Part shown: piece by piece, positions 35,166-46,172 of the stretch
How positions within the stretch are numbered: the first letter of the stretch is position 1
Layout: the number at the start of each line of letters is the position of its first letter
Assembly: GCA_903887375.1 (NCBI GenBank)
Contig: CAISPN010000105.1
Span: 1-46,172, forward strand
DNA length: 46,172 nucleotides
From: an uncultured cyanobacterium
Lineage (GTDB): Bacteria > Cyanobacteriota > Cyanobacteriia > Cyanobacteriales > Microcystaceae
Direction of reading: 5' to 3'
The notes under the pieces: model-generated
The model's database searches: none
Seen by the model: the letters and a program-made list of their open reading frames with translations, nothing else
Told to the model about the DNA's origin: nothing
Position numbers and translations under genes: made by a program

Positions 35166-38100
35166 GTGCAAGATATGTACTACCACAAAGCAAAAAGTAT
35201 TGATCAAAAAGAGCTCAGCTGTTGGCTAGAAAAAATATGGAGCCAGGAGCAGAGCAGCTCAATCCTTGAAGTACTCTGCTCTGGTCAAATTTTTCGCGGC
35301 GATCACATAATGACGGATGAACGGGGTCATTTTCGCATTGATGAAGTGACAATTTCTCCGCTTGATGGTACATCCCATTTTGTAATATTGCGCCAAGATA
35401 TTACCAATCGCAGAAGAGCAGAATCATATGATAATCTCCGTGGGAAAATTTTAAGTCGTATTGCCGGCAATGATTCTCTTTCTTCTATTCTTAAAGCCCT
35501 GGTTTATGGCGTAGAAGAGGTAGCCCCTACCTCACTCTGTAGTCTTTTAATGCTCAGCTCTGATAGACAACATCTTGGAGATGGCATAGCCCCAAGTTTG
35601 CCAGATTTTTATAATCAAGCTATCGATGGGATCCAAATTGGCCTTGGAGTTGGCTCTTGTGGCACGGCATCATTTTTAGGTGAGCGGGTGATAGTCTCAG
35701 ATATTCAAACCCATCCCTATTGGGCGCCATATAAGGAATTAGCAGCCAAAGCTGGTTTGGCCGCTTGCTGGTCTGAGCCTGTTAGATCTTCCAAGGGAGA
35801 AATATTCGGTACATTTGCTATATATCATAGTACTCCCCATACCCCCAATGAGAGTGATATAGACTTGATTGAACAAGCGGCTAGATTGGCTGGAATTGCC
35901 ATTGAGCATACTCGTACACTTCAAGCTTTATCTAAACGTGAAATCTTGATGCATACATTGGTACAAACAATACCTGATTTAATTTGGCTAAAAGATACTG
36001 ATGGAGTCTATTTAGCTTGCAATCCCGTATTTGAGCAATTTTTTGGAGCCCGTCAAGCTGATATTTTGGGCAAGAGTGATTATGATTTCGTCAGCAAAGA
36101 ATTGGCGGATTTCTTTAGAGAAAATGATCAAAAGGCAATTGCCAAGGGAAGCCCAAGTATCAATGAAGAAGAGCTGACATTTGCTTGGGGAGGCTATAAG
36201 GGACTTTTTGAAACTATCAAGGTTCCTGTAATAGATGATGATGGTAAATTGTCAGGTGTACTTGGTGTTGCCCGTGAAGTTACTCTGCGCAAAAAATTAG
36301 AACGGAATTTAAAACAAGCCAAGATCGAAGCTGAAAACTCTGCTAGAGCCACTAGCAACTTTTTAGCTAATATGAGCCATGAAATCCGCACTCCGATGAA
36401 TGCCATTATCGGGCTAACAGATTTGGCTTTGCGCACATCTTTAAACCCTCGCCAACAGGATTACCTCACCAAAGTCCATGTTGCAGCCAATTCTCTGCTA
36501 GGACTTATCAACGATATCCTAGATTTGACCAAAATCCAATCAGGTAAGCTGCAATTGGAATCTATTCCTTTTAGCCTAGATAATGTACTAGATGATCTCT
36601 CCTCATTGATGACCATCCAGATAGAAGAAAAGGGATTAGAATTACTTTTCTGGCGCAATCCTGAAGTTCCCGTAAAGCTCATTGGCGATCCCTTGAGGCT
36701 CTCACAGGTGCTCACTAACCTGACCAACAATGCTAAAAAGTTCACTGAATCGGGGGATATCATTGTTTCTACTGAATTGGTAGAGATCAATGGGCAAAAT
36801 GTCACTTTGCGCTTTTCGGTGAGCGATTCTGGAGTTGGTATTACCCAAGAGCAGATGTCTAAACTATTTAAACCTTTCTCACAAGCTGATGAATCTGTTA
36901 CTCGCAGATACGGTGGAACCGGATTGGGATTGACCATATCTCGCCAACTAGTAGAGATGATGGGTGGACAAATATGGATTGAGAGCGAGCCAGGTGTTGG
37001 CACTAAAGTTTCATTCGAGGCAAATTTCCAGCTAGCCAGCGAGGATCAAAAGGAAATTCCCAGAATCTTAGATGATCTTTGCAGCTTGAAAACTTTGGTA
37101 GTTGATGATAATCCTCATGCTTTGGAAATTTTCAAAGCTCAATTAGAGCAGTTCTCCTTTAGAGCTGAAACCTGCAATAGTCCTGAGCAGGCTTTTGAGA
37201 AATTACTTTCTGCTGATGATCTTGATCCATATAGACTAGTTCTGATGGATTATCGCATGCCCAGTATGGATGGGATCACGGCAACCCACAAGATCAAGCA
37301 TGAGTTGGGGCTCAAGGTCATTCCAAGGGTGATTCTGGTGACTGCTGCCAGTAGGCTAGCTGGGGAAGAAGGACTGTATCGTAAAGATTTTGATGAACTG
37401 CTGGCTAAACCGGTCAACGCTTCACTTTTACTCGATGTAGTTATGGAAGTATTTGGCCACCCCAGACAGAGCCGCCACAGGTTTGATCGAGAATTAGACC
37501 TACAGGCGATTGAACCAATCAAAGGAGCCAGGATCTTACTTGCCGAGGACAATCTAATCAATCAACAGGTTGCAACTGAAATACTATCGCAAGCTGGTCT
37601 CTTGGTTGAGATAGCCAACAACGGTTTAGAAGCCCTAGAGCTTTTGCGAAAGCGTCAATATGACTGTGTCTTGATGGATGTTCAAATGCCCATTATGGAT
37701 GGCTATACTGCCACTGTGGAGATTCGCAAAGAGCCGGCATGGAAAGACCTACCAGTTCTAGCTATGACCGCTAATGTATTGTCTGAAGATAGGGCTAAAG
37801 CCTCTCAAGTAGGCATGAACGATCACATTGCAAAGCCAATAGTAGCCCGTGAGCTCTTTTCAACTTTGGTTAAATGGATTGAGCCTGGAAATTATCAACC
37901 TATTGTTGATAACAATAGCAAACAAATTGAGGAGAATATAGTTATAGAATTGCCAGAAGAACTCCATGGCATTGATATTCCCCAAGCTTTAGCCAATATA
38001 GGTGATAATCGCAAATTACTGCAAAAACTGTTGATTGATTTTCTACATGATCATGTTGGTGATTGTGCAACTATTGCTAGCAGTATAGAGCAAAAAGATT

Positions 38101-38531
38101 TTGCCACAGCAGAAAGATTAGCTCATACACTCAAAGGAGTCTCTCACGCTCTTGGGGCGATGTCTTTGCGATTTCAAGCAGCTGAATTAGAAAGGGTTCT
38201 AAAACACAATGAAGATGTTGATATTTCTGCTCTGGTAAAAGCTTTAGAAGCTGAGCTCAATCCAGTGATGGAAGGCTTGGCCAGGTGGCATAGTTCTAAT
38301 ACAGTTACAAAACCAGCTAAGATATCTTCAGATAATGCCCTGGCTCTTTGTGATGAATTAGAAAAATTACTAGAAGAAATGGATCCCGAGGCCGGCAATA
38401 AGGCTGATGAGCTTGCCGCTGCGCTTAACGGTGATCTGGATTTAACCGTTCTTATTGCTGAAGAAGCTGCCAATTTTGAATTTGAATCTGCCCTTGCTAA
38501 ACTAAAACAACTGCGTCAGGTAATTTCATGA
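35166..38531 (+). CDS. Hybrid sensor histidine kinase (PAS-GAF-PAS-HisKA-HATPase-REC-REC-Hpt)
   Basis: A 1121-aa multi-step phosphorelay protein with no membrane segment. Order: a partial PAS (1-85, only its C-terminal half, ending VILRQDITNRRRAE), GAF (~100-250), PAS (~255-375), HisKA with phospho-acceptor His405 (NMSHEIRTPMNA), HATPase with TGLGLTISRQLVEMMGG, REC1 with Asp695 (LVLMDYRMPS), REC2 with Asp838 (VLMDVQMPIMDG) and Hpt with His987 (LAHTLKGVSHALGA). All phosphotransfer residues are intact. The start is GTG (35166) or ATG (35175); a stop lies 18 bp upstream in frame, so the missing half of the first PAS is not present. The stop overlaps the next start (ATGA). Confidence 0.9.
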   Translation: MQDMYYHKAKSIDQKELSCWLEKIWSQEQSSSILEVLCSGQIFRGDHIMTDERGHFRIDEVTISPLDGTSHFVILRQDITNRRRAESYDNLRGKILSRIAGNDSLSSILKALVYGVEEVAPTSLCSLLMLSSDRQHLGDGIAPSLPDFYNQAIDGIQIGLGVGSCGTASFLGERVIVSDIQTHPYWAPYKELAAKAGLAACWSEPVRSSKGEIFGTFAIYHSTPHTPNESDIDLIEQAARLAGIAIEHTRTLQALSKREILMHTLVQTIPDLIWLKDTDGVYLACNPVFEQFFGARQADILGKSDYDFVSKELADFFRENDQKAIAKGSPSINEEELTFAWGGYKGLFETIKVPVIDDDGKLSGVLGVAREVTLRKKLERNLKQAKIEAENSARATSNFLANMSHEIRTPMNAIIGLTDLALRTSLNPRQQDYLTKVHVAANSLLGLINDILDLTKIQSGKLQLESIPFSLDNVLDDLSSLMTIQIEEKGLELLFWRNPEVPVKLIGDPLRLSQVLTNLTNNAKKFTESGDIIVSTELVEINGQNVTLRFSVSDSGVGITQEQMSKLFKPFSQADESVTRRYGGTGLGLTISRQLVEMMGGQIWIESEPGVGTKVSFEANFQLASEDQKEIPRILDDLCSLKTLVVDDNPHALEIFKAQLEQFSFRAETCNSPEQAFEKLLSADDLDPYRLVLMDYRMPSMDGITATHKIKHELGLKVIPRVILVTAASRLAGEEGLYRKDFDELLAKPVNASLLLDVVMEVFGHPRQSRHRFDRELDLQAIEPIKGARILLAEDNLINQQVATEILSQAGLLVEIANNGLEALELLRKRQYDCVLMDVQMPIMDGYTATVEIRKEPAWKDLPVLAMTANVLSEDRAKASQVGMNDHIAKPIVARELFSTLVKWIEPGNYQPIVDNNSKQIEENIVIELPEELHGIDIPQALANIGDNRKLLQKLLIDFLHDHVGDCATIASSIEQKDFATAERLAHTLKGVSHALGAMSLRFQAAELERVLKHNEDVDISALVKALEAELNPVMEGLARWHSSNTVTKPAKISSDNALALCDELEKLLEEMDPEAGNKADELAAALNGDLDLTVLIAEEAANFEFESALAKLKQLRQVIS

Positions 38532-39067
38532 ACGAAGTTTCAACTTCCCCAGAAAAACTAAAGATCCTCATCATAGATGATGAGCGTTTTAATCTAAATA
38601 CACTCAACGGCTTGCTAAAAGATGAATATAAAATCATGGTGGCTACTAATGGTGAACAGGGACTAAAAGCTGCCATAACTGGTCTGCCTGATTTGATCCT
38701 GCTGGATATCAGCATGCCTGGGATGGATGGTTATGAAGTTTGTGCCCGTCTAAAAAACGATACCCTCACTGGGGCTATTCCAATTATTTTTATCACTGCC
38801 CATACTGATGCTTCTGATGAAACCAAGGGCTTTGAATTGGGGGCGGCTGATTATATTGCTAAACCATTTAACTTAGCAGTTGTCCAAGCTAGAATACGTA
38901 ACCAAATCAAACCCAAGAATAATTTCTCTGGTGAGGAACTCAAAATCGAAATCGAAATTGATCAAAAAAAGAGAGAAGAAGAAGTCAATATGCTCACTGG
39001 AAGCTCTTTTTTTCAAGAGATCAAACAGGAAATAGCAGGAGTGGATCTAGATAAATTCTGGCAATAG
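38528..39067 (+). CDS. Stand-alone response regulator with charged C-terminal tail
   Basis: A 179-aa protein: a REC domain (residues ~10-130) with the acidic pair IIDDE, phosphorylated Asp in LILLDISMPGMDGYE, Thr in FITAHT and Lys in AKPFN. The remaining ~50 residues form a Lys/Glu-rich probable coiled coil (KIEIEIDQKKREEEVN) ending DLDKFWQ. No DNA-binding or enzymatic output domain is present, so it probably acts by protein contact. Its ATG overlaps the kinase stop by 4 bp, so it is almost certainly co-translated and a target of that kinase's phosphorelay. Confidence 0.9.
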   Translation: MNEVSTSPEKLKILIIDDERFNLNTLNGLLKDEYKIMVATNGEQGLKAAITGLPDLILLDISMPGMDGYEVCARLKNDTLTGAIPIIFITAHTDASDETKGFELGAADYIAKPFNLAVVQARIRNQIKPKNNFSGEELKIEIEIDQKKREEEVNMLTGSSFFQEIKQEIAGVDLDKFWQ

Positions 39068-39121: not shown

Positions 39122-39880
39122 ATGCCAAAAGTTATTTCCATTCATTCCTATCGTGGTGGTACCGGTAAATCTAACATTACTGCCAATCTAGCGACTAGCA
39201 TTGCCCTACAGGGCTACCGTGTAGGTGTTGTAGATACGGATATTCCATCACCAGGAATTCACAATCTTTTTGGCTTGGAGGCAGATGATACTGACAAGAC
39301 CCTGAACAATTTTCTCTGGGGTGAAGATTTGATTGAAAATGCAGCTTATGATGTCAGCAAAAATATTGCTCTAGAAGGAGAAGGTAAATTATTTTTGGTT
39401 CCCTCTAGCGTCAAAGCTGATGATATAGCGCGCATTCTTAAAAATGGCTATGATGTCAAGCTCTTAAATGATGGATTTCGCTCTCTGGTAAAAGCCTTAC
39501 AGTTGGATTATCTCTTTATTGATACTCACCCTGGACTTTCTAGGGAAACTTTTCTCTCAATTGCTATTTCACATATCTTGATCTTAATTCTCAGGCCCGA
39601 TAAGCAGGACTATCAAGGCACCGCTGTCACCATAGATGTAGCTAGGCAGTTGAAGGTTAAAAAAATGCTTTTGACAATTAATAAAGCACATACTAAGCTC
39701 AATCTTGAATCCCTCAAAGAAAAAGTAGAGCAAACCTATAAAGAAGAAGTAGCTGCAGTTTTTCCTCTCTCAGAAGAGGTAATACAGCTTGCCAGTGAAG
39801 GGGTATTCTGCCTGAAGTATCCGCAGCATTCAGTTACAGAGAAATTTCGTGAACTAGCTCAGCGTATTATAGAAGGTTAA
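39122..39880 (+). CDS. ParA/MinD-family ATPase with Arg-variant Walker A
   Basis: A 252-aa P-loop ATPase. The deviant Walker A reads SYRGGTGKSN: Lys16 is present, but the signature lysine is replaced by Arg11. VVDTDIPSPGIH is the Walker A' region and YLFIDTHPGLS the Walker B region. ParA/MinD proteins form ATP-dependent dimers on DNA, membranes or partner proteins and position cargo. No ParB-like partner gene is adjacent; neighbours are the response regulator and the cyclase-like sensor, suggesting a role in placing or gating a signalling complex. That role is inference from gene order. Confidence 0.87.
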   Translation: MPKVISIHSYRGGTGKSNITANLATSIALQGYRVGVVDTDIPSPGIHNLFGLEADDTDKTLNNFLWGEDLIENAAYDVSKNIALEGEGKLFLVPSSVKADDIARILKNGYDVKLLNDGFRSLVKALQLDYLFIDTHPGLSRETFLSIAISHILILILRPDKQDYQGTAVTIDVARQLKVKKMLLTINKAHTKLNLESLKEKVEQTYKEEVAAVFPLSEEVIQLASEGVFCLKYPQHSVTEKFRELAQRIIEG

Positions 39881-39913
39881 CGGTGCTTAATTTTAAAAAT
39901 TTTGGGGTCAACA

Positions 39914-42091
39914 ATGTTTGGAATCAATCGTTTCAGCATTAAATCTAAACTGCAAATCATGCTTTTGATTGTCAGTTTGATTTCCCTTTTAACAATAGGC
40001 TATCTCAGTTTGATCAAAGCTAATGAACTTCTCATAGAGCAGACTTTTGGACATGTCAATAGTGTTCGCTATTCTAAAGGCAAACAAGTTGAAGATTATT
40101 TCAATAATTTGACCAAACAGGTAGAAGGACTTTGCCAAGAGCAAGATGTAATAGAAGCCATAAATCAGTTTAAGCAGGGATATAATGATCTACAAAAACA
40201 GACAATCTCAGTTTCCCAAGATCAAGCCATCGACAATTACTATAAAAATCAATTTGCTCCGCGTCTAGCCAAAAGTATTGAAGGAAATTTAGTAGTTAAT
40301 TCCTATTATCCAACTAGCAATCCAGCTCGCTACCTACAGTATTACTACATTGCCAATAATACTGAGCCAGTAGAAAAAAGATCTGATATGTTGCTCTCTA
40401 ATGAAAAGAGCAATTATGGCAAAGCTTACAATCTCTATCAAAAAAAGTTTCGTGACATCATCAAAAAACTTGACTATTCTGATTTATTCTTGATTGATCC
40501 TGACAGTGGAGATGTAGTCTATAGTGTAGCCAAAAAAACTGATTTTGCTAGTAATCTTTTTACAGGTCCCTACAACAATACTAACCTAGCCCAAGTTTTT
40601 AAAGATATACGTAGCAAAAAAGTTCAAGGAGTTGTCGAACTGACTGATTTTAGTTTTTATCCGGCTTCTTACAATTCTCCTGCTGCATTTATAGCCGGCT
40701 CTATTTATCAAGGAAATAAAAGAATTGGTATTCTTGCTGTAAGAATTTCTGCTGATCAGATCAATCAAATACTAGCTAATAAAATAAATTGGAAAGAAGA
40801 TGGATTAGGTAGTAGTGGTGAGACCTTTATAGTAGGTGATGATCTTAGACCTCGCTCGGCCAATCGATTTTTTCTAGAAAATCCTGCTGGTTTTCTCAAA
40901 ATACTTCGACAAAATAGGATACGACCTAGTATTATCAATGCCATCGCGCGAAACCAAACTACTTTACTGCTTCAACCAATAGAGACTGAAAATGCCAGAA
41001 GATCTCTTCAAGGTGAATTGGGAACTGAAATTGTCAAAAGCTATAAAGGCTCAGATGTAATAAGCTCATATGCTCCACTTAATGTCGCAGGAGTGAACTG
41101 GGGAATTGTCTCTGAAATGGATCTTTTTGAAGCTAATGCTCCTTTACGCTCTTTATTGGGTTTTCTGCTACTTTGTGGAATTATCTTGGTTGCCTTATTA
41201 AGTCTTTTTTCTACTATTGCCTCAGAGCGTTTTATCAGACCAATCAAGGCTTTGCTTTATAAGTTAAATAGATCTGAATCTGGAGATTTAGCTAGCCAGA
41301 TTGAGATAAATTCACCTGATGAAACAGGAGAGCTTGCTAAAAAATTTAATCATTTAATAGGGCAAGTTTATCAAAAAAACGAAATTATCAAATCTAAAGA
41401 ACAAGAAAACGAAACTCTTTTAGTCAATATTATGCCTAAAACTGTTATTGATCGTTGGCGCAAAGGCGATAATCATATCATTGAGCAATTTCAGCAGGTA
41501 ACGGTATTAGTTATTGAAATTGGCAATCTCAAACAGGACACTTTTTCTTGGATTGAGGGCTATAAAGATCTAATTACTATGATAGATAACCGGGCTGAGA
41601 AAGCTGAAATTGAAAGGCTCAGTTGTTTTAATGGAGTCTATATTGCCGCTTGCGGGCTAACTAAAGCGAGAATGGATCATCATAGACGCACTGTAGAATT
41701 TGCCCAAGATGTTTTAAAGTTTTCTAGAGATACTCTCAATAAACATCATTTTAACTTCACACTTAAAGTTGGTATTCATACTGGCTCAGTTACCACAGCC
41801 TTAGTTGGTGAGAAAAAGCTTAGCTATGATCTCTATGGAGAGCCAATTTATTATGCTCATAGATTAGCTCACTTGGCAGAAGCTAATACGATTTTAGTAA
41901 CTAATGAGGTTTATGAATTTGTGCAAGATCTTTTTAAATTTGAACCGCACAAACCAATTAACCTAGAAAATGGTGAACCCAGCATAAATACATGGATTCT
42001 GGGTAAGACAGGGCTTAGCAGTTTGATTAGCGATCTGACCTTCGGCTTAGACTTGGATGATGAAGATTATTTTTCCCCCAAAGGAGAATAA
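39914..42091 (+). CDS. Membrane sensor with Cache-like, HAMP and degenerate class III cyclase domains
   Basis: A 725-aa protein. One transmembrane helix near the N-terminus (LIVSLISLLTIGYLSL) and one near residue ~420 (LLGFLLLCGIILVALLSLFS) enclose a large extracytoplasmic sensor region, followed by a HAMP linker (RFIRPIKALLYKLN) and a cyclase-like domain (~504-696). In canonical class III cyclases the first metal site is Asp, the second Asp follows Gly, and an Asn sits before A-x-R. Here they are Glu535, Gly574 and Tyr646; Arg650 and the base-contact Asp639 remain. Catalysis is therefore doubtful. The ATG at 39914 is preferred over the TTG at 39902. The MscS gene starts 3 bp after the stop. 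Confidence 0.87.
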   Translation: MFGINRFSIKSKLQIMLLIVSLISLLTIGYLSLIKANELLIEQTFGHVNSVRYSKGKQVEDYFNNLTKQVEGLCQEQDVIEAINQFKQGYNDLQKQTISVSQDQAIDNYYKNQFAPRLAKSIEGNLVVNSYYPTSNPARYLQYYYIANNTEPVEKRSDMLLSNEKSNYGKAYNLYQKKFRDIIKKLDYSDLFLIDPDSGDVVYSVAKKTDFASNLFTGPYNNTNLAQVFKDIRSKKVQGVVELTDFSFYPASYNSPAAFIAGSIYQGNKRIGILAVRISADQINQILANKINWKEDGLGSSGETFIVGDDLRPRSANRFFLENPAGFLKILRQNRIRPSIINAIARNQTTLLLQPIETENARRSLQGELGTEIVKSYKGSDVISSYAPLNVAGVNWGIVSEMDLFEANAPLRSLLGFLLLCGIILVALLSLFSTIASERFIRPIKALLYKLNRSESGDLASQIEINSPDETGELAKKFNHLIGQVYQKNEIIKSKEQENETLLVNIMPKTVIDRWRKGDNHIIEQFQQVTVLVIEIGNLKQDTFSWIEGYKDLITMIDNRAEKAEIERLSCFNGVYIAACGLTKARMDHHRRTVEFAQDVLKFSRDTLNKHHFNFTLKVGIHTGSVTTALVGEKKLSYDLYGEPIYYAHRLAHLAEANTILVTNEVYEFVQDLFKFEPHKPINLENGEPSINTWILGKTGLSSLISDLTFGLDLDDEDYFSPKGE

Positions 42092-42094
42092 AGC

Positions 42095-43537
42095 ATGTAC
42101 CAAAATGTATTGCTAGTTAAAGGAATTCTTATAATTCTTGGTGTTCCTCTGTTGGTAGTTCTACTTAGCGAAATAATTGAACAATGCCAGCAACGTGGTA
42201 ATCCTTTAGCTAGGTTCTTTTCTGCCTTGCGCAATCTAGTATTGCCATCGCTTGTATTCTATATAGTTCTGAAATATTTTTTATATGTTACTTCCGATAG
42301 ACTTCTAGCAAGGGTATTTGGAACCCTATTTTGGCTAACTATACTCTACGCGACTCTTCTGCTGCTGAGCGCAGTTTTGATCAGGAATAAAAAGGAGCGA
42401 ACATGGCAGATTAACATTTCTAATATACTTTTGCAGTTTATCCGTACAACTGTTGTCATAGGTTTGCTGGGCTACATACTCTCAAAAATGTGGAGCCTAG
42501 ATCTAACCAAAATACTAGGAGCACTAGGAGTTGGTTCTCTAGTAATGGCCTTGGCATTACAGGATACTCTGAGTAATTTAGTTTCTGGTTTTTTGTTAAT
42601 CATCGAAAGTCCTTTTAAAGTAGGAGACTGGATCAAAGTTGGAGATTTAACTGGTCAGGTAATTGAAATTAACTGGAGAGCGGTGAGACTTAAAACCACC
42701 GATTGTGATGCTGTAATTATTCCTAATGGATTTTTAGGTAAGGCAAATATCTTTAATTACAATTTACTAAATCCTCTATATCTACTAAGATTAAAATTTC
42801 CATTTTCCTATGAAGAGCATCCAGATCTAGTAGAAAAAACTCTCTTAGAAGTAGCCCATTCTATAGAAGAAATTGAGCGAAATCCTGGACCTGAAGTTGC
42901 TCCTAAATTATTTAAAAATACTCATATTGAATATGAGATTCGTTTTTTTATTAAAGATTATGAAATCTATGAAAATATCCAAGATATTTTTAGTAGCAGG
43001 CTGTACTATGCGATCCATCGCAATTCATTTCATATACCTTTTCCTGACAAAATAGAATATAAAATTGATCGTTTACCCAAAAGAACTAATAGCTCTCATG
43101 ATCAAATCAGTAAAATTCTCTGCTCACAGTCAATATTTTCTCGTCTAGATAAGGCAACTTTAATTTATTTGACCAACAACACGACTATTGAGCTCTTTGG
43201 TATGGGTGAAAATATAGTTGAAATAGGCTTATTTGATAAGGCATTTTTTATAATTCTTGCTGGTAAAGCTACCCTTTTTACCAATGATCGCTATGGACAG
43301 CAAAAAGAACTCACTGAATTATCTGAGGGCGATTTTCTCGGTGAGATGGTTTTCTTTCCCGATAGTCCCAGTGCTGTATCGGCAACAGTACAAAAAACCG
43401 TCAGTGCTATCACCATTACTCCAGAAGCTATTTCCTATCTAAGCCAAAATCAACCCAGATTTGCTATTGAAATTAGCCAGTTTATCGATGAAAGAAGAAA
43501 ATTGATTCTTTCAGCAGAAAATCAAATCTCTAGTTAA
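42095..43537 (+). CDS. MscS-family channel with C-terminal cyclic-nucleotide-binding-like domain
   Basis: A 480-aa membrane protein. Several N-terminal helices lead to the MscS pore helix and beta domain: ILGALGVGSLVMALALQDT, NLVSGFLLIIESPFKVGDW and AVIIPNGFLGKANIFNY. Residues ~345-470 form a cNMP-binding fold (KAFFIILAGKATLF, ELSEGDFLGEMVFFP). In the phosphate-binding cassette Glu417 is kept, but the conserved Arg before S-A-T-V is Val428, and no Arg occurs nearby. Nucleotide binding may thus be lost or altered. AAAGGAG precedes the ATG at good distance. The channel is probably opened by tension or by its cyclase-like neighbour. Confidence 0.9.
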   Translation: MYQNVLLVKGILIILGVPLLVVLLSEIIEQCQQRGNPLARFFSALRNLVLPSLVFYIVLKYFLYVTSDRLLARVFGTLFWLTILYATLLLLSAVLIRNKKERTWQINISNILLQFIRTTVVIGLLGYILSKMWSLDLTKILGALGVGSLVMALALQDTLSNLVSGFLLIIESPFKVGDWIKVGDLTGQVIEINWRAVRLKTTDCDAVIIPNGFLGKANIFNYNLLNPLYLLRLKFPFSYEEHPDLVEKTLLEVAHSIEEIERNPGPEVAPKLFKNTHIEYEIRFFIKDYEIYENIQDIFSSRLYYAIHRNSFHIPFPDKIEYKIDRLPKRTNSSHDQISKILCSQSIFSRLDKATLIYLTNNTTIELFGMGENIVEIGLFDKAFFIILAGKATLFTNDRYGQQKELTELSEGDFLGEMVFFPDSPSAVSATVQKTVSAITITPEAISYLSQNQPRFAIEISQFIDERRKLILSAENQISS

Positions 43538-44723: not shown

Positions 44724-46172
44724 TTAGTGAACATGAGCAACATTGAGACATAACGTATTACCGGACTTGACAACCTTAAATACATCATTAGTAGTACTAG
44801 CTGGGGCAATAGTATTGCCAATAAAACTACTCGATAGAGTCAAGCCAGCAGTAGCAGTAAGAATTGGAATCGAAATTGATTGTCCTACACTGATCTCACT
44901 GTTGATATTACTGATATTGTTAATAGAAAAAACGATTTTGCCGCTGCTCATATTAGCTGTTGATGACACCATAAGACTGTCATGCTCATTAGCGTTAATA
45001 CCTGATATTGAGCAATTGAGCGTACCTCCACTTAGAGTCAGACTGCCATTAACCAAAAAACTTCCGTTAGTATCAGTATAAGTACTTCCTGTCACGGATC
45101 CTCCTGGAGAAATTGCAGCACCAGCACTTAAAGTTAAATTGCCAATGTAGGTTCCAGAGCCTGCTAGTACACCATTTTCGTTGAAGGAAGCACCAGTATT
45201 ATTAGTAATGGTGCCGTTATTGAGCAAAATACTATTACTATTATTGTTAAGAATTCCAGAATTGTTGAAATTTCCTCCACTGTTATTTACCATTAGACCA
45301 AAGTTATTAAAACTTTTCCCACTGGCGTTGACAAGAGTCCCAGTGTTGACAATAATACCAATGTTTTCATTGATTATGATACCTGGATTATTCAACGTAG
45401 CGCCACCGGGGTTTTTAATATTGCCAAAGTTGTCGATGATATTATTGGTACTAGTGATATTTACGGTAAAACTCTGATTAGCTGCAGGCGAGCCGTTGTT
45501 AGTACTGCTTACAGTAAAAGTATCTATGTAGTTTCCAATAGTTAAGGTATTTAGATTATTTGGTTGGTAGATATAGCCGCCGGTACTGTTGTTGATTGTT
45601 AAAGTACCATAATTACCAACTGCAGTTGAAATTCCATTAGTATCACTGACCCCAAAGATTCCATAGGTTACGGCAGTACCCTCAGCATCAGTAGCTGTGA
45701 TAGTTCCTGCAGAGCTCAAAAAAGTGTCATTTGCAGGAGTATCTATATAGCTCAGAGTAACTGGACTGCTGGTATAGCTAGGGGTATCACAAACCCCTAC
45801 AGAACTTTTTAACTGACTAGGTGTTAAACCTATAACACCAATCAATTTTGTACCAGCTAAGTTTGTGCCAGTCAAATTTGTACCAGTTAAGTTTGCACCA
45901 CTTAGATTAATACCAGCTAAGTTGAAACCGGCTAGGTTATCACCAGATAGATTAACACCTTGTAAGTTTGCTGCACTTGTTAACTGACTGGCTGTTAAAC
46001 CTGTAACTCCTGAAAGATTTACATTGTTTAAATTGGCACCGGTTAAATTTGTACCAGTTAAGTTTGCACCACTTAGATTAATACCAGCTAAGTTGAAACC
46101 GGCTAGGTTATCACCAGATAGATTAACACCTTGTAAGTTTGCTGCACTTGTTAACTGACTGGCTGTTAAACC
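44724..46172 (-). CDS. Large repeat surface protein (pentapeptide, VCBS-like and Asn/Gly-rich solenoid), 5' truncated by window
   Basis: The visible 482 residues are the C-terminal part of a larger protein; the frame stays open to the window edge. Order: tandem pentapeptide repeats of the A/S-N-L-x-G kind (46172 to ~45800) with interspersed LTxSQL elements; a VCBS/cadherin-like domain (DTPANDTFLSSAGTITATD, GTLTINNSTGGYIYQP); an Asn-rich run of INNSG-like strands; and an autotransporter-type beta-solenoid end (GNLTLSAGAAISPGGS). There is no membrane anchor or barrel at the C-terminus (ends LNVAHVH). It resembles cyanobacterial secreted adhesins. A TTG at 45875 is not a true start since the pentapeptides continue upstream of it. 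Confidence 0.75.
   Translation of the reverse strand, partial: GLTASQLTSAANLQGVNLSGDNLAGFNLAGINLSGANLTGTNLTGANLNNVNLSGVTGLTASQLTSAANLQGVNLSGDNLAGFNLAGINLSGANLTGTNLTGTNLAGTKLIGVIGLTPSQLKSSVGVCDTPSYTSSPVTLSYIDTPANDTFLSSAGTITATDAEGTAVTYGIFGVSDTNGISTAVGNYGTLTINNSTGGYIYQPNNLNTLTIGNYIDTFTVSSTNNGSPAANQSFTVNITSTNNIIDNFGNIKNPGGATLNNPGIIINENIGIIVNTGTLVNASGKSFNNFGLMVNNSGGNFNNSGILNNNSNSILLNNGTITNNTGASFNENGVLAGSGTYIGNLTLSAGAAISPGGSVTGSTYTDTNGSFLVNGSLTLSGGTLNCSISGINANEHDSLMVSSTANMSSGKIVFSINNISNINSEISVGQSISIPILTATAGLTLSSSFIGNTIAPASTTNDVFKVVKSGNTLCLNVAHVH
45874..46172 (-). repeat. 171-bp tandem repeat encoding 57 residues (pentapeptide block)
   Basis: Bases 45874-46001 and 46045-46172 are identical over 128 bp with a period of 171 bp (57 codons, in frame). 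The remaining 43 bp of each unit are similar but not identical, and a weaker third copy begins near 45825. Each unit encodes about nine A/S-N-L-x-G pentapeptides and an LTASQL element. The second copy ends exactly at the window edge, so more copies may follow. Confidence 0.9.

Follow-up and report, generated by a model that had tools for sequence, protein, structure and literature searches.

Does a class III cyclase domain next to a channel with a cyclic-nucleotide-binding (CNB) domain stand for cyclic nucleotide (cNMP) signalling if key residues of both domains are absent? The question is raised by two adjoining genes in the window, a stretch of 46,172 nucleotides from an uncultured cyanobacterium of the Microcystaceae. 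An earlier note on this DNA had read the two domains as a case of matched loss, in which a channel next to a cyclase that makes no cNMP would no longer need to bind it. We compared both genes with their relatives and found the cyclase domain to be degenerate in the window's clade and the channel pocket to be altered throughout the family, with no specific coupling between the two after phylogenetic correction.

Catalytic positions of the cyclase-like receptor

The first gene (39902..42091, forward strand, as are all features below) codes, according to the open reading frame list and Pfam, for a HAMP-class III cyclase-like membrane protein of 729 amino acids with a putative dCache sensor domain. 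It starts with a TTG at 39902, and an ATG at 39914 is a possible alternative; the numbers of the earlier note fit this ATG, and those based on the TTG, given first below, are higher by four. Pfam places a HAMP domain at residues 443-488 and Guanylate_cyc at 528-700. The dCache_1 profile was matched by eight of 11 family members (E ≤ 0.01), the window protein itself staying below a match. The cyclase-homology domain (41483..42001; PF00211, 88 bits) is free of stop codons. It belongs to the class III fold by its Pfam score (about 85-88 bits against a cut-off of 21.9) and by a PDB sequence search, which matched class III chains including 4p2f and 3r5g.

The roles of the catalytic columns are those we take from the class III literature. 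In an alignment of 108 family cyclases the window protein has Glu for Asp at metal position 1 (E539/E535, 41516..41518), Arg at the position of the purine-contact Lys (R572/R568, 41615..41617), Gly for Asp at metal position 2 (G578/G574, 41633..41635) and Tyr at the position of the transition-state Asn (Y650/Y646, 41849..41851). The adenine-contact Asp (D643/D639, 41828..41830) and the transition-state Arg (R654/R650, 41861..41863) are retained. Of the two metal-binding Asp and the Asn-Arg pair expected of an active enzyme, only the Arg is thus present. The alignment confirmed all five residues named in the earlier note (Glu535, Gly574, Tyr646, Asp639 and Arg650); Arg568 had gone unmentioned there. 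Loss of cyclase activity in the window protein is well supported by these residues, and their absence makes it almost certain that no cNMP is produced, as had been supposed. The purine pair, the metal Asp and the phosphate Arg of class III cyclases are treated in the available part of PMC4886424. A structure model of the protein was weak (mean pLDDT 52), and a Foldseek search with this low-confidence model only restated the class III fold family.

In contrast to the class III cyclases of known structure (4p2f, 3r5g), with which the family shares the cyclase-homology domain, the catalytic set is incomplete in 105 of the 108 family members and complete in only three. The Arg column holds 16 residue types; 38 of the 108 cyclases have lost this Arg alone and retain both metal Asp, the Lys, the adenine-contact Asp and the Asn, so that other clades may retain weak activity. 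All 18 cyclases of the window's clade are devoid of Asp at metal position 1 and of the Asn. D, D, N and R were retained in 22 of 23 non-family cyclase domains from seven genomes, among the matches listed; this control set (non-family domains among 28 loci, from the better-scoring of 97 matches) under-samples weak cyclases. Judging by the alignment, the residue departures are real and mostly a property of the family or clade, not of this locus. The incomplete cyclase domains of relatives are evidently still under purifying selection: 17 of 18 pairs gave a dN/dS of 0.03-0.25, the remaining one being saturated, and all pairs were catalytically incomplete. These pairs were hand-picked, some share a row, and they comprise relatives only, none being close enough for the window protein.

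The CNB pocket of the channel and the question of matched loss

The second gene (42095..43537) codes for an MscS-type channel of 480 amino acids with a C-terminal CNB domain (open reading frame list and Pfam). The MscS beta and C-terminal domains (MS_channel_2nd, MS_channel_3rd) lie at 42563..42994 and the CNB domain (PF00027) at 43196..43441; PF00924, PF21082 and PF00027 all score over their cut-offs. This architecture, an MscS pore followed by a CNB domain, is shared with the bCNG channels, members of the MscS superfamily with a C-terminal CNB domain that were reportedly described by Caldwell (2010) and Malcolm (2012); one named member is cyanobacterial. Unlike bCNG channels, the present family has a steady dCache-HAMP cyclase-like partner and carries Ser or Thr in place of the Arg of the phosphate-binding cassette. 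In the window the cassette Glu417 (43343..43345) is retained, and Ser426 (43370..43372) stands at the Arg position. The earlier note was right about the Glu and about the absence of any Arg nearby, but it had assigned the Arg column to Val428 (Glu+11) instead of Ser426 (Glu+9). The column lies at Glu+9 in 85 of 92 family channels and at Glu+10 in the other seven; in EPAC1 FGQLALVNDAPRAAT the spacing from the cassette Glu to the Arg is likewise Glu+9, according to the accessible text of PMC5753123.

The Arg column reads Ser in 89 and Thr in three of the 92 readable channels (one of the 93 has a gap) and Arg in none; of the 142 CNB columns it is one of the five that vary least. The cassette Glu is retained in 72 of the 93. 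Outside the family the Arg was retained in five of six MscS-CNB channels, drawn from 38 CNB loci, and no family cyclase was found near these six in flanks of up to 1.5 kb. Since Arg is absent in all 92 readable channels and the Ser column is near-invariant, the change is, on this alignment, fixed across the whole family, and because the Ser-type pocket is common to the whole sampled family it is most simply regarded as ancestral. A Ser in this column is no proof that cNMP binding is absent. Note that six of the 16 conserved CNB columns, including two that hardly vary elsewhere (Leu415, Thr435), differ in the window channel, which may therefore be atypical. A structure model of the channel was weak as well (mean pLDDT 67), the geometry of the pocket is beyond both models, and Foldseek only restated the fold family.

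A loss of the channel Arg in response to an inactive cyclase, as the earlier note had it, finds no support in these data. The Arg is also absent from channels beside two complete cyclases (L115, L039), and a column without variation offers nothing to correlate, so that matched loss was rejected for this residue. The other key CNB residue, the Glu, is retained in 16 of 17 scored channels of the window's clade. Across the family, loss of the channel Glu tracks loss of the cyclase metal residues in raw counts (Fisher p 1.7e-4), and among seven independent pairs zero to three agree and none is against; with only seven such pairs this test has little power and would miss a modest true coupling.

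General erosion of the two domains gave a similar picture in the 85 of 88 pairs with data. Uncorrected, conservation of cyclase and CNB domain correlated with a Spearman coefficient of 0.78 (partial 0.47; catalytic residues against CNB, partial 0.57). In phylogenetic contrasts the partial correlation was 0.24 (p 0.03) or 0.18 (p 0.10), depending on the column threshold, whereas the control contrasts of cyclase and MscS domain were larger (0.33 and 0.38). The catalytic residues against CNB gave 0.13 (p 0.24) and 0.20 (p 0.06) under the same control, and cyclase-CNB contrasts without control for the other domains were still positive (0.50 and 0.29). The correlated loss across homologous pairs that the earlier note led one to expect was accordingly not recovered as a specific cyclase-CNB coupling, and matched loss is unsupported after phylogenetic correction for the Glu as well as for general erosion.

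Inheritance and neighbourhood of the gene pair

The channel ATG (42095) follows the cyclase stop codon (42089-42091) after 3 bp on the same strand, and neither frame is interrupted over its 2190 or 1443 bp; on both points the earlier reading holds. A Shine-Dalgarno-like AAAGGAG (42080..42086) within the 3' end of the cyclase gene makes translational coupling to the channel likely.

A dCache-HAMP-cyclase gene followed by one for an MscS channel with CNB domain forms a conserved module. Among 388 genomes of the window's class, the cyclase was found in 82, the channel in 80 and the two together in 77 (thresholds 1e-60 and 1e-45), the cyclase standing alone in five and the channel in three (Fisher p about 5e-71, with no correction for kinship). 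In a previous sample of 58 genomes, including the window's own, the identical 16 carried both. For 88 of the 108 cyclases the next gene downstream on the same strand is the channel, which is also the only widely recurrent neighbour of the family cyclases. On long contigs without an adjacent channel it was found elsewhere in the genome (about 1.7 Mb away in G241; also G196, G221, G292 and G254). Distances in the sensor and MscS trees correlated with 0.90 over 87 pairs, the best of 500 shuffles reaching 0.28. Co-occurrence, linkage and congruent trees support that the two genes are inherited together, which does not demonstrate physical contact of their products. The 108 cyclase and 93 channel rows each hold one contig twice (L051 = L129). 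They omit cyclases short of the domain end (L183, L184, a second copy in L137, two L045 pieces) as well as L188 and L046, and partial or split channels (L043, L047, L072, L139, L171, L181); the tree was computed without two short cyclase rows (L187, L045).

A ParA/MinD-like ATPase (39122..39880; open reading frame list and Pfam) ends 21 bp upstream of the cyclase TTG and is predicted to belong to the same operon. HK, REC and ParA genes as fixed upstream parts of the module are unsupported; of these, ParA alone is found repeatedly in the window's clade (window, L106, L107 and L175). Genes for an ammonium transporter (Amt) and a glutaminase lie near pairs of a sister subclade, a hint that the module might sense nitrogen; neither adjoins the window pair. 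These neighbours suggest a role similar to that of the amino-acid-releasing mechanosensitive channels MscCG of Corynebacterium and cyanobacterial MscM, likewise bacterial channels of the mechanosensitive type, for which the available part of PMC13312541, in contrast to the present family, describes no CNB domain or cyclase partner. The accessible text of PMC4886424 reports cyclase-like proteins with altered specificity residues and CNB genes nearby, none of which is termed a channel there. The cyclase-channel pair is undescribed in the titles and abstract openings of the literature searched, among the matches listed and with subscription journals thinly covered.

Mechanistic models of the receptor-channel pair

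A degenerate cyclase and a CNB pocket that was rebuilt long ago and family-wide suggest that the pair probably signals otherwise than by making and binding cAMP. We favour, with some reserve, a sensor-channel module in which a pseudocyclase relays a periplasmic signal to the channel by contact or through a non-canonical ligand. A presumably dimeric dCache-HAMP receptor would detect something in the periplasm and transmit the resulting change through its cyclase-homology domain to the adjoining MscS-type channel, presumably a heptamer, with the CNB domains of the latter as receiving element. The cyclase domain of the window's clade would be a pseudocyclase, its fold under selection and its catalysis gone. 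Coupling would occur by direct contact of both cytoplasmic domains or by a ligand other than a canonical cNMP, a route already suggested in the earlier note and still the leading possibility, and the output would be gating of the channel. That both genes are broken in G018 (see below) also counts in favour of this model; the long branch of the window in a quick tree, the in-frame stop of the L164 cyclase and an L109 channel frame that ends early near a contig end, the latter two in the window's clade, count against it.

Alternatively, the Ser-type CNB domain may bind some other small molecule, be it a nucleoside, a nucleotide or a metabolite of nitrogen or carbon, that the cyclase-like domain possibly makes or releases; this we regard as rather doubtful. 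The near-invariant Ser426 column is what would be expected of a pocket that is re-used rather than decayed, and the purine-contact Lys and Asp are jointly retained in 75 of the 108 cyclases as against nine for Asn and Arg. A precedent for CNB domains untied from cNMP is provided by the regulatory subunits of kinetoplastid PKA, which bind nucleosides and in which, as here, a polar residue replaces the cassette Arg; their signature, as given in the available part of PMC10959531, also needs an Ala-to-Glu exchange two residues past the cassette Glu. In the 93 family channels this position holds Ala (51), Thr (25), Ser (7), Val (5, the residue of the window) or Ile (5) but never Glu, so that a pocket of the kinetoplastid type was dismissed; nucleoside binding is known for those subunits, whereas the present family is known from its genes. 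The Amt and glutaminase genes of the sister subclade would fit a metabolite ligand, but neighbourhood is a weak guide, and neither gene adjoins the pair in the window.

It is unlikely that the channel is still gated by cNMP despite the missing Arg, with the messenger supplied by other intact cyclases and the pseudocyclase only modulating or serving as a scaffold. D, D, N and R are all present in two further class III cyclases of the window genome, L002 on C88 (a relative of the solved cyclases 2w01 and 6fht) and L004 on C87, and most family channels keep the cassette Glu. However, the complete absence of the Arg within the family, against its presence in most MscS-CNB channels outside, argues against canonical gating, and if any cNMP present in the cell were enough, so constant an association with a cognate cyclase-like partner would lack an explanation.

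That the pair is decaying, both domains being functionless and awaiting deletion, is highly improbable. The window pair is among the most diverged, with 51% of the conserved columns kept in the cyclase and 62% in the CNB domain, values that for either domain fall into the bottom 2% of 85 pairs. Within its clade the L164 cyclase has an in-frame stop, and neither gene is intact in G018, where the cyclase is spread over three frames and the channel was found only as residues 1-212. Against decay stand the two open frames of the window and the low dN/dS of relatives. Catalytic residues are, moreover, missing from every one of the 18 members of the clade, on long branches, but in 16 of them the locus still has a channel of near-full profile, the other two channels being one cut at profile position 437 and one contig-end fragment. 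Hardly more credible is a cyclase that still makes cNMP, by unusual chemistry with a Glu metal ligand and a substitute for the Asn or as a heterodimer: Asp639 and Arg650 are retained and 19 of the 108 family members have Glu at metal position 1, but Gly at metal position 2 has no side chain for metal binding, the half-sites formed with the same-genome paralogue (C101 = L040; states E,K,S,E,N,L) are both incomplete, which rules out such a composite site on residues, and a dCache-HAMP dimer is unlikely to accept as partners the other cyclases of the genome, which are built differently.

Beyond the window, the pair may, as a more tentative extension that we hold to be somewhat less probable than the relay by a pseudocyclase, represent a widespread type of cNMP-independent receptor-channel made from parts of cAMP signalling. 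The cyclase domain would then act as a mechanical or NTP-sensing switch that opens the MscS pore via the Ser-type CNB domain, with nitrogen compounds as plausible candidates for what is released or sensed. The clades would form a series from a complete cyclase (L115) via loss of the Arg (38 of 108) to the full pseudocyclase of the window, with the Ser of the partner unchanged. Class III cyclase and CNB annotations are usually taken as cAMP signalling, and neither is reliable at face value here. Complete, Arg-less and fully degenerate cyclases adjoin the same type of channel in a pair present in 77 of the 388 genomes sampled from this class, which offers a direct test of the path from a second-messenger enzyme to a direct switch and of the ligand of a CNB domain that lacks the phosphate-binding Arg.

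Gene order and recurrence of the pair

ORF calls and domain annotation place five plus-strand genes in a row, namely a hybrid histidine kinase (35166-38531), a REC protein (38528-39067), a ParA-like ATPase (39122-39880), the cyclase-like gene (39902-42091) and the channel gene (42095-43537), on contig C105 of a genome of 2.93 Mb. The cyclase-like protein carries HAMP and Guanylate_cyc domains; its periplasmic part has no Pfam match on its own, and dCache_1 is matched by 8 of 11 family members. The channel carries the MscS beta and C-terminal domains as well as a CNB domain. Only 3 bp separate the cyclase stop from the channel start and AAAGGAG lies inside the end of the cyclase gene, which suggests translational coupling. 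The ParA/MinD-like ATPase has the motif RGGTGKS, the usual motif in such ATPases being KGGTGKS, and its clustered homologues lie at most four genes from the pair in L106, L107 and L175. At the window edge a minus-strand ORF (45876-46172) shows pentapeptide-like repeats (NLxG), followed by a longer repetitive surface-type protein.

Relatives of the window cyclase (P0001, E≤1e-30) were found in 16 of 58 genomes, the window's own included, and relatives of the window channel (P0002) in the identical 16. Among 388 evenly drawn genomes of the window's cyanobacterial class (cut-offs E≤1e-60 for the cyclase, E≤1e-45 for the channel), 82 contain the cyclase, 80 the channel and 77 both. Five have the cyclase only (G260, G311, G328, G364, G387) and three the channel only (G115, G354, G403); some of the eight probably reflect broken contigs. 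The contig of L047 in G387 terminates within the channel, and in G260 the sensor half is fused to a non-cyclase partner (match only up to residue 474 of 729). The channel is the sole widely recurrent neighbour, immediately downstream of 88 of 108 family cyclases (this number, like that of the 93 channels below, counts one contig twice). A scored channel is present in the fetched loci of 88 cyclases: in 85 it shares the strand of the cyclase and is no more than 300 nt away from the reading frame, in one it is on the opposite strand and in two it is more distant; in three of these loci it is upstream. Of the 20 cyclases without a scored channel in the stretch, nine represent contig ends or partial or split channels, L162 is ambiguous, and ten have a non-adjoining channel elsewhere in the genome (G196, G221, G241, G254, G292, G009, G024, G029, G033 and, truncated, G018). 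The pair is also present at L050, on a MAG that bears the label Campylobacteraceae. Over 87 pairs the patristic distances of the sensor part and those of the MscS part show a correlation of 0.90 (500 label shuffles reached at most 0.28), to which common species history contributes. This dCache-HAMP sensor half also stands at the head of other, longer proteins in the window genome (L189, G000:C35, E 1.5e-66) and in Thioploca, Thiomargarita and Venteria (L052-L055), and can thus be regarded as common to several output types.

Catalytic and pocket residues

Six cyclase columns were scored, whose catalytic roles we take to be metal 1, purine Lys, metal 2, adenine Asp, Asn and Arg. In the alignment of 108 family cyclases the window protein, numbered as in the earlier note, has Glu535 at metal 1, Arg568 for the purine Lys, Gly574 at metal 2, the retained Asp639, Tyr646 for Asn and the retained Arg650. 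The earlier note had named all of these except Arg568, and the alignment bears it out. Passages of PMC4886424 back the column roles in part. Glu417 of the channel cassette is kept, as also claimed. The channel Arg is indeed missing; its supposed position, Val428, is two residues beyond the true column, Ser426, as seen when the family motif GE(P)SPVS is aligned with GTPRTATV of non-family MscS-CNB channels. This column lies at Glu+9 in 85 of 92 family channels and at Glu+10 in seven.

Across the 108 cyclases, metal 1 Asp is present in 52, metal 2 Asp in 67, Lys in 90, adenine Asp in 81, Asn in 67 and Arg in only 12. Kept jointly are the purine-contact pair in 75, both metal Asp in 43, and Asn plus Arg in nine; the catalytic set is complete in three (L115, L039, L044), and Arg alone is missing in 38. 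As a control, 23 cyclase domains outside the family were read in seven of these genomes, and 22 keep D, D, N and R. The exception is L260 of G013, whose catalytic set is lost (residue states R,T,T,T,N,L), so further putative pseudocyclases are present in the sampled genomes.

The cassette Glu is kept in 72 of 93 channels, and the Arg column holds Ser in 89, Thr in three and a gap in one; five of six non-family MscS-CNB channels keep Arg, L231 having Tyr. At 0.21 bits, the entropy of the Ser426 column ranks fifth from the bottom among 142 CNB columns; that of the cyclase Arg column is 3.13 bits. Since released positions drift, as the cyclase Arg did and the channel position did not, the channel pocket looks altered once and then held, not lost.

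Erosion of the cyclase and the question of matched loss

Cyclase-domain dN/dS (Nei-Gojobori) is 0.026-0.246 in 17 of 18 hand-chosen pairs, the remaining pair being saturated; all 18 are catalytically incomplete and 15 lack at least one metal Asp. Six pairs come from the window clade, five with values of 0.043-0.246. These are pairs of relatives; L127, the nearest to the window protein (46-47% identity), is too distant for a dN/dS of the window protein itself. Decay is seen in L164 of the window clade, with an in-frame stop in the cyclase, and in L109 the channel frame is cut short close to the end of a contig. In G018 (L045 = G018:C233, L072 = G018:C135) the cyclase is broken into three frames and the channel ends after 212 of a relative's 502 residues; in G024, G029 and G033, which share its genus code, each of the two genes has a single long frame. 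G018 is possibly one case of joint gene-level loss, or an assembly error.

The earlier note had proposed a matched loss in cyclase and channel. Arg is absent from every channel in the sample, even beside the complete cyclases L115 and L039, and the question of its matched loss therefore cannot arise within the family. Glu-less channels stand beside a cyclase missing at least one metal Asp in 19 of 20 cases, Glu-bearing ones in 33 of 67 (Fisher p 1.7e-4); on the tree this amounts to just seven independent pairs, of which 0-3 agree and none disagree. L039 has a complete cyclase, yet its channel has Val at the Glu position. Among the 18 members of the window clade, 16 of 17 scored channels retain Glu, with an incomplete catalytic set in all 18 cyclases. 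Between cyclase and CNB, divergence from the family consensus shows a correlation of 0.78 (partial 0.47). When independent contrasts are used, the partial correlation becomes 0.24 (p 0.03) at one column threshold and 0.18 (p 0.10) at the other; the cyclase-MscS control is stronger (0.33 and 0.38). A modest cyclase-CNB coupling may exist; the aligned pairs, tested for correlated loss, do not support a specific one. The proposal of a matched loss is not upheld: the state of the channel is fixed throughout the family, and erosion of the cyclase was a separate, repeated process.

Neighbouring genes and possible mode of action

In a six-member sister subclade an ammonium transporter (Amt) gene lies directly upstream of the pair in all five loci with a complete gene (L048:6423-7889, L105:9445-10905, L106:9238-10701, L107:9246-10709, L108:9362-10852); the sixth, L047, has the C-terminal half of Amt. 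A glutaminase is near the pair in L048 and L107 (Pfam) and in L106 and L108 (sequence clustering), an amine oxidase in L107 (Pfam) and L108 (clustering). Parts of PMC13312541 cite glutamate release via mechanosensitive channels in bacteria, cyanobacterial MscM included, which makes a nitrogen-related role of the pair plausible; for the window it would be a lead only. A different subclade of the window's clade contains seven loci with a periplasmic-type gene at most three genes from the pair (L049:10627-11715, L155:3967-5043 and five others); Pfam identifies the L049 gene as PBP_like_2, and the genes of the other six cluster with it. The product of this gene may supply the dCache sensor with a ligand.

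In the window cyclase neither the second metal ligand nor the Asn is present. A composite site with L040, the paralogue pair of the window genome, was rejected, as the residue states complete neither half-site. The view that the cyclase is inactive, on which the earlier note had built, is sound on sequence. A rival explanation is that the channel is still opened by cNMP: the window genome retains two cyclases in which D, D, N and R are all intact (L002, which is close to 2w01 and 6fht, and L004), so that cNMP may be present in the cell. We prefer a model in which the receptor's cyclase domain would switch the channel through contact, or via a ligand other than cNMP. Kinetoplastid PKA has likewise lost the Arg, as have the Ser-type CNBs of the family channels, but its second defining residue is not found in the latter. 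The interest of these results reaches beyond the window, as a widespread cyclase-channel pair has probably abandoned cyclic nucleotides.
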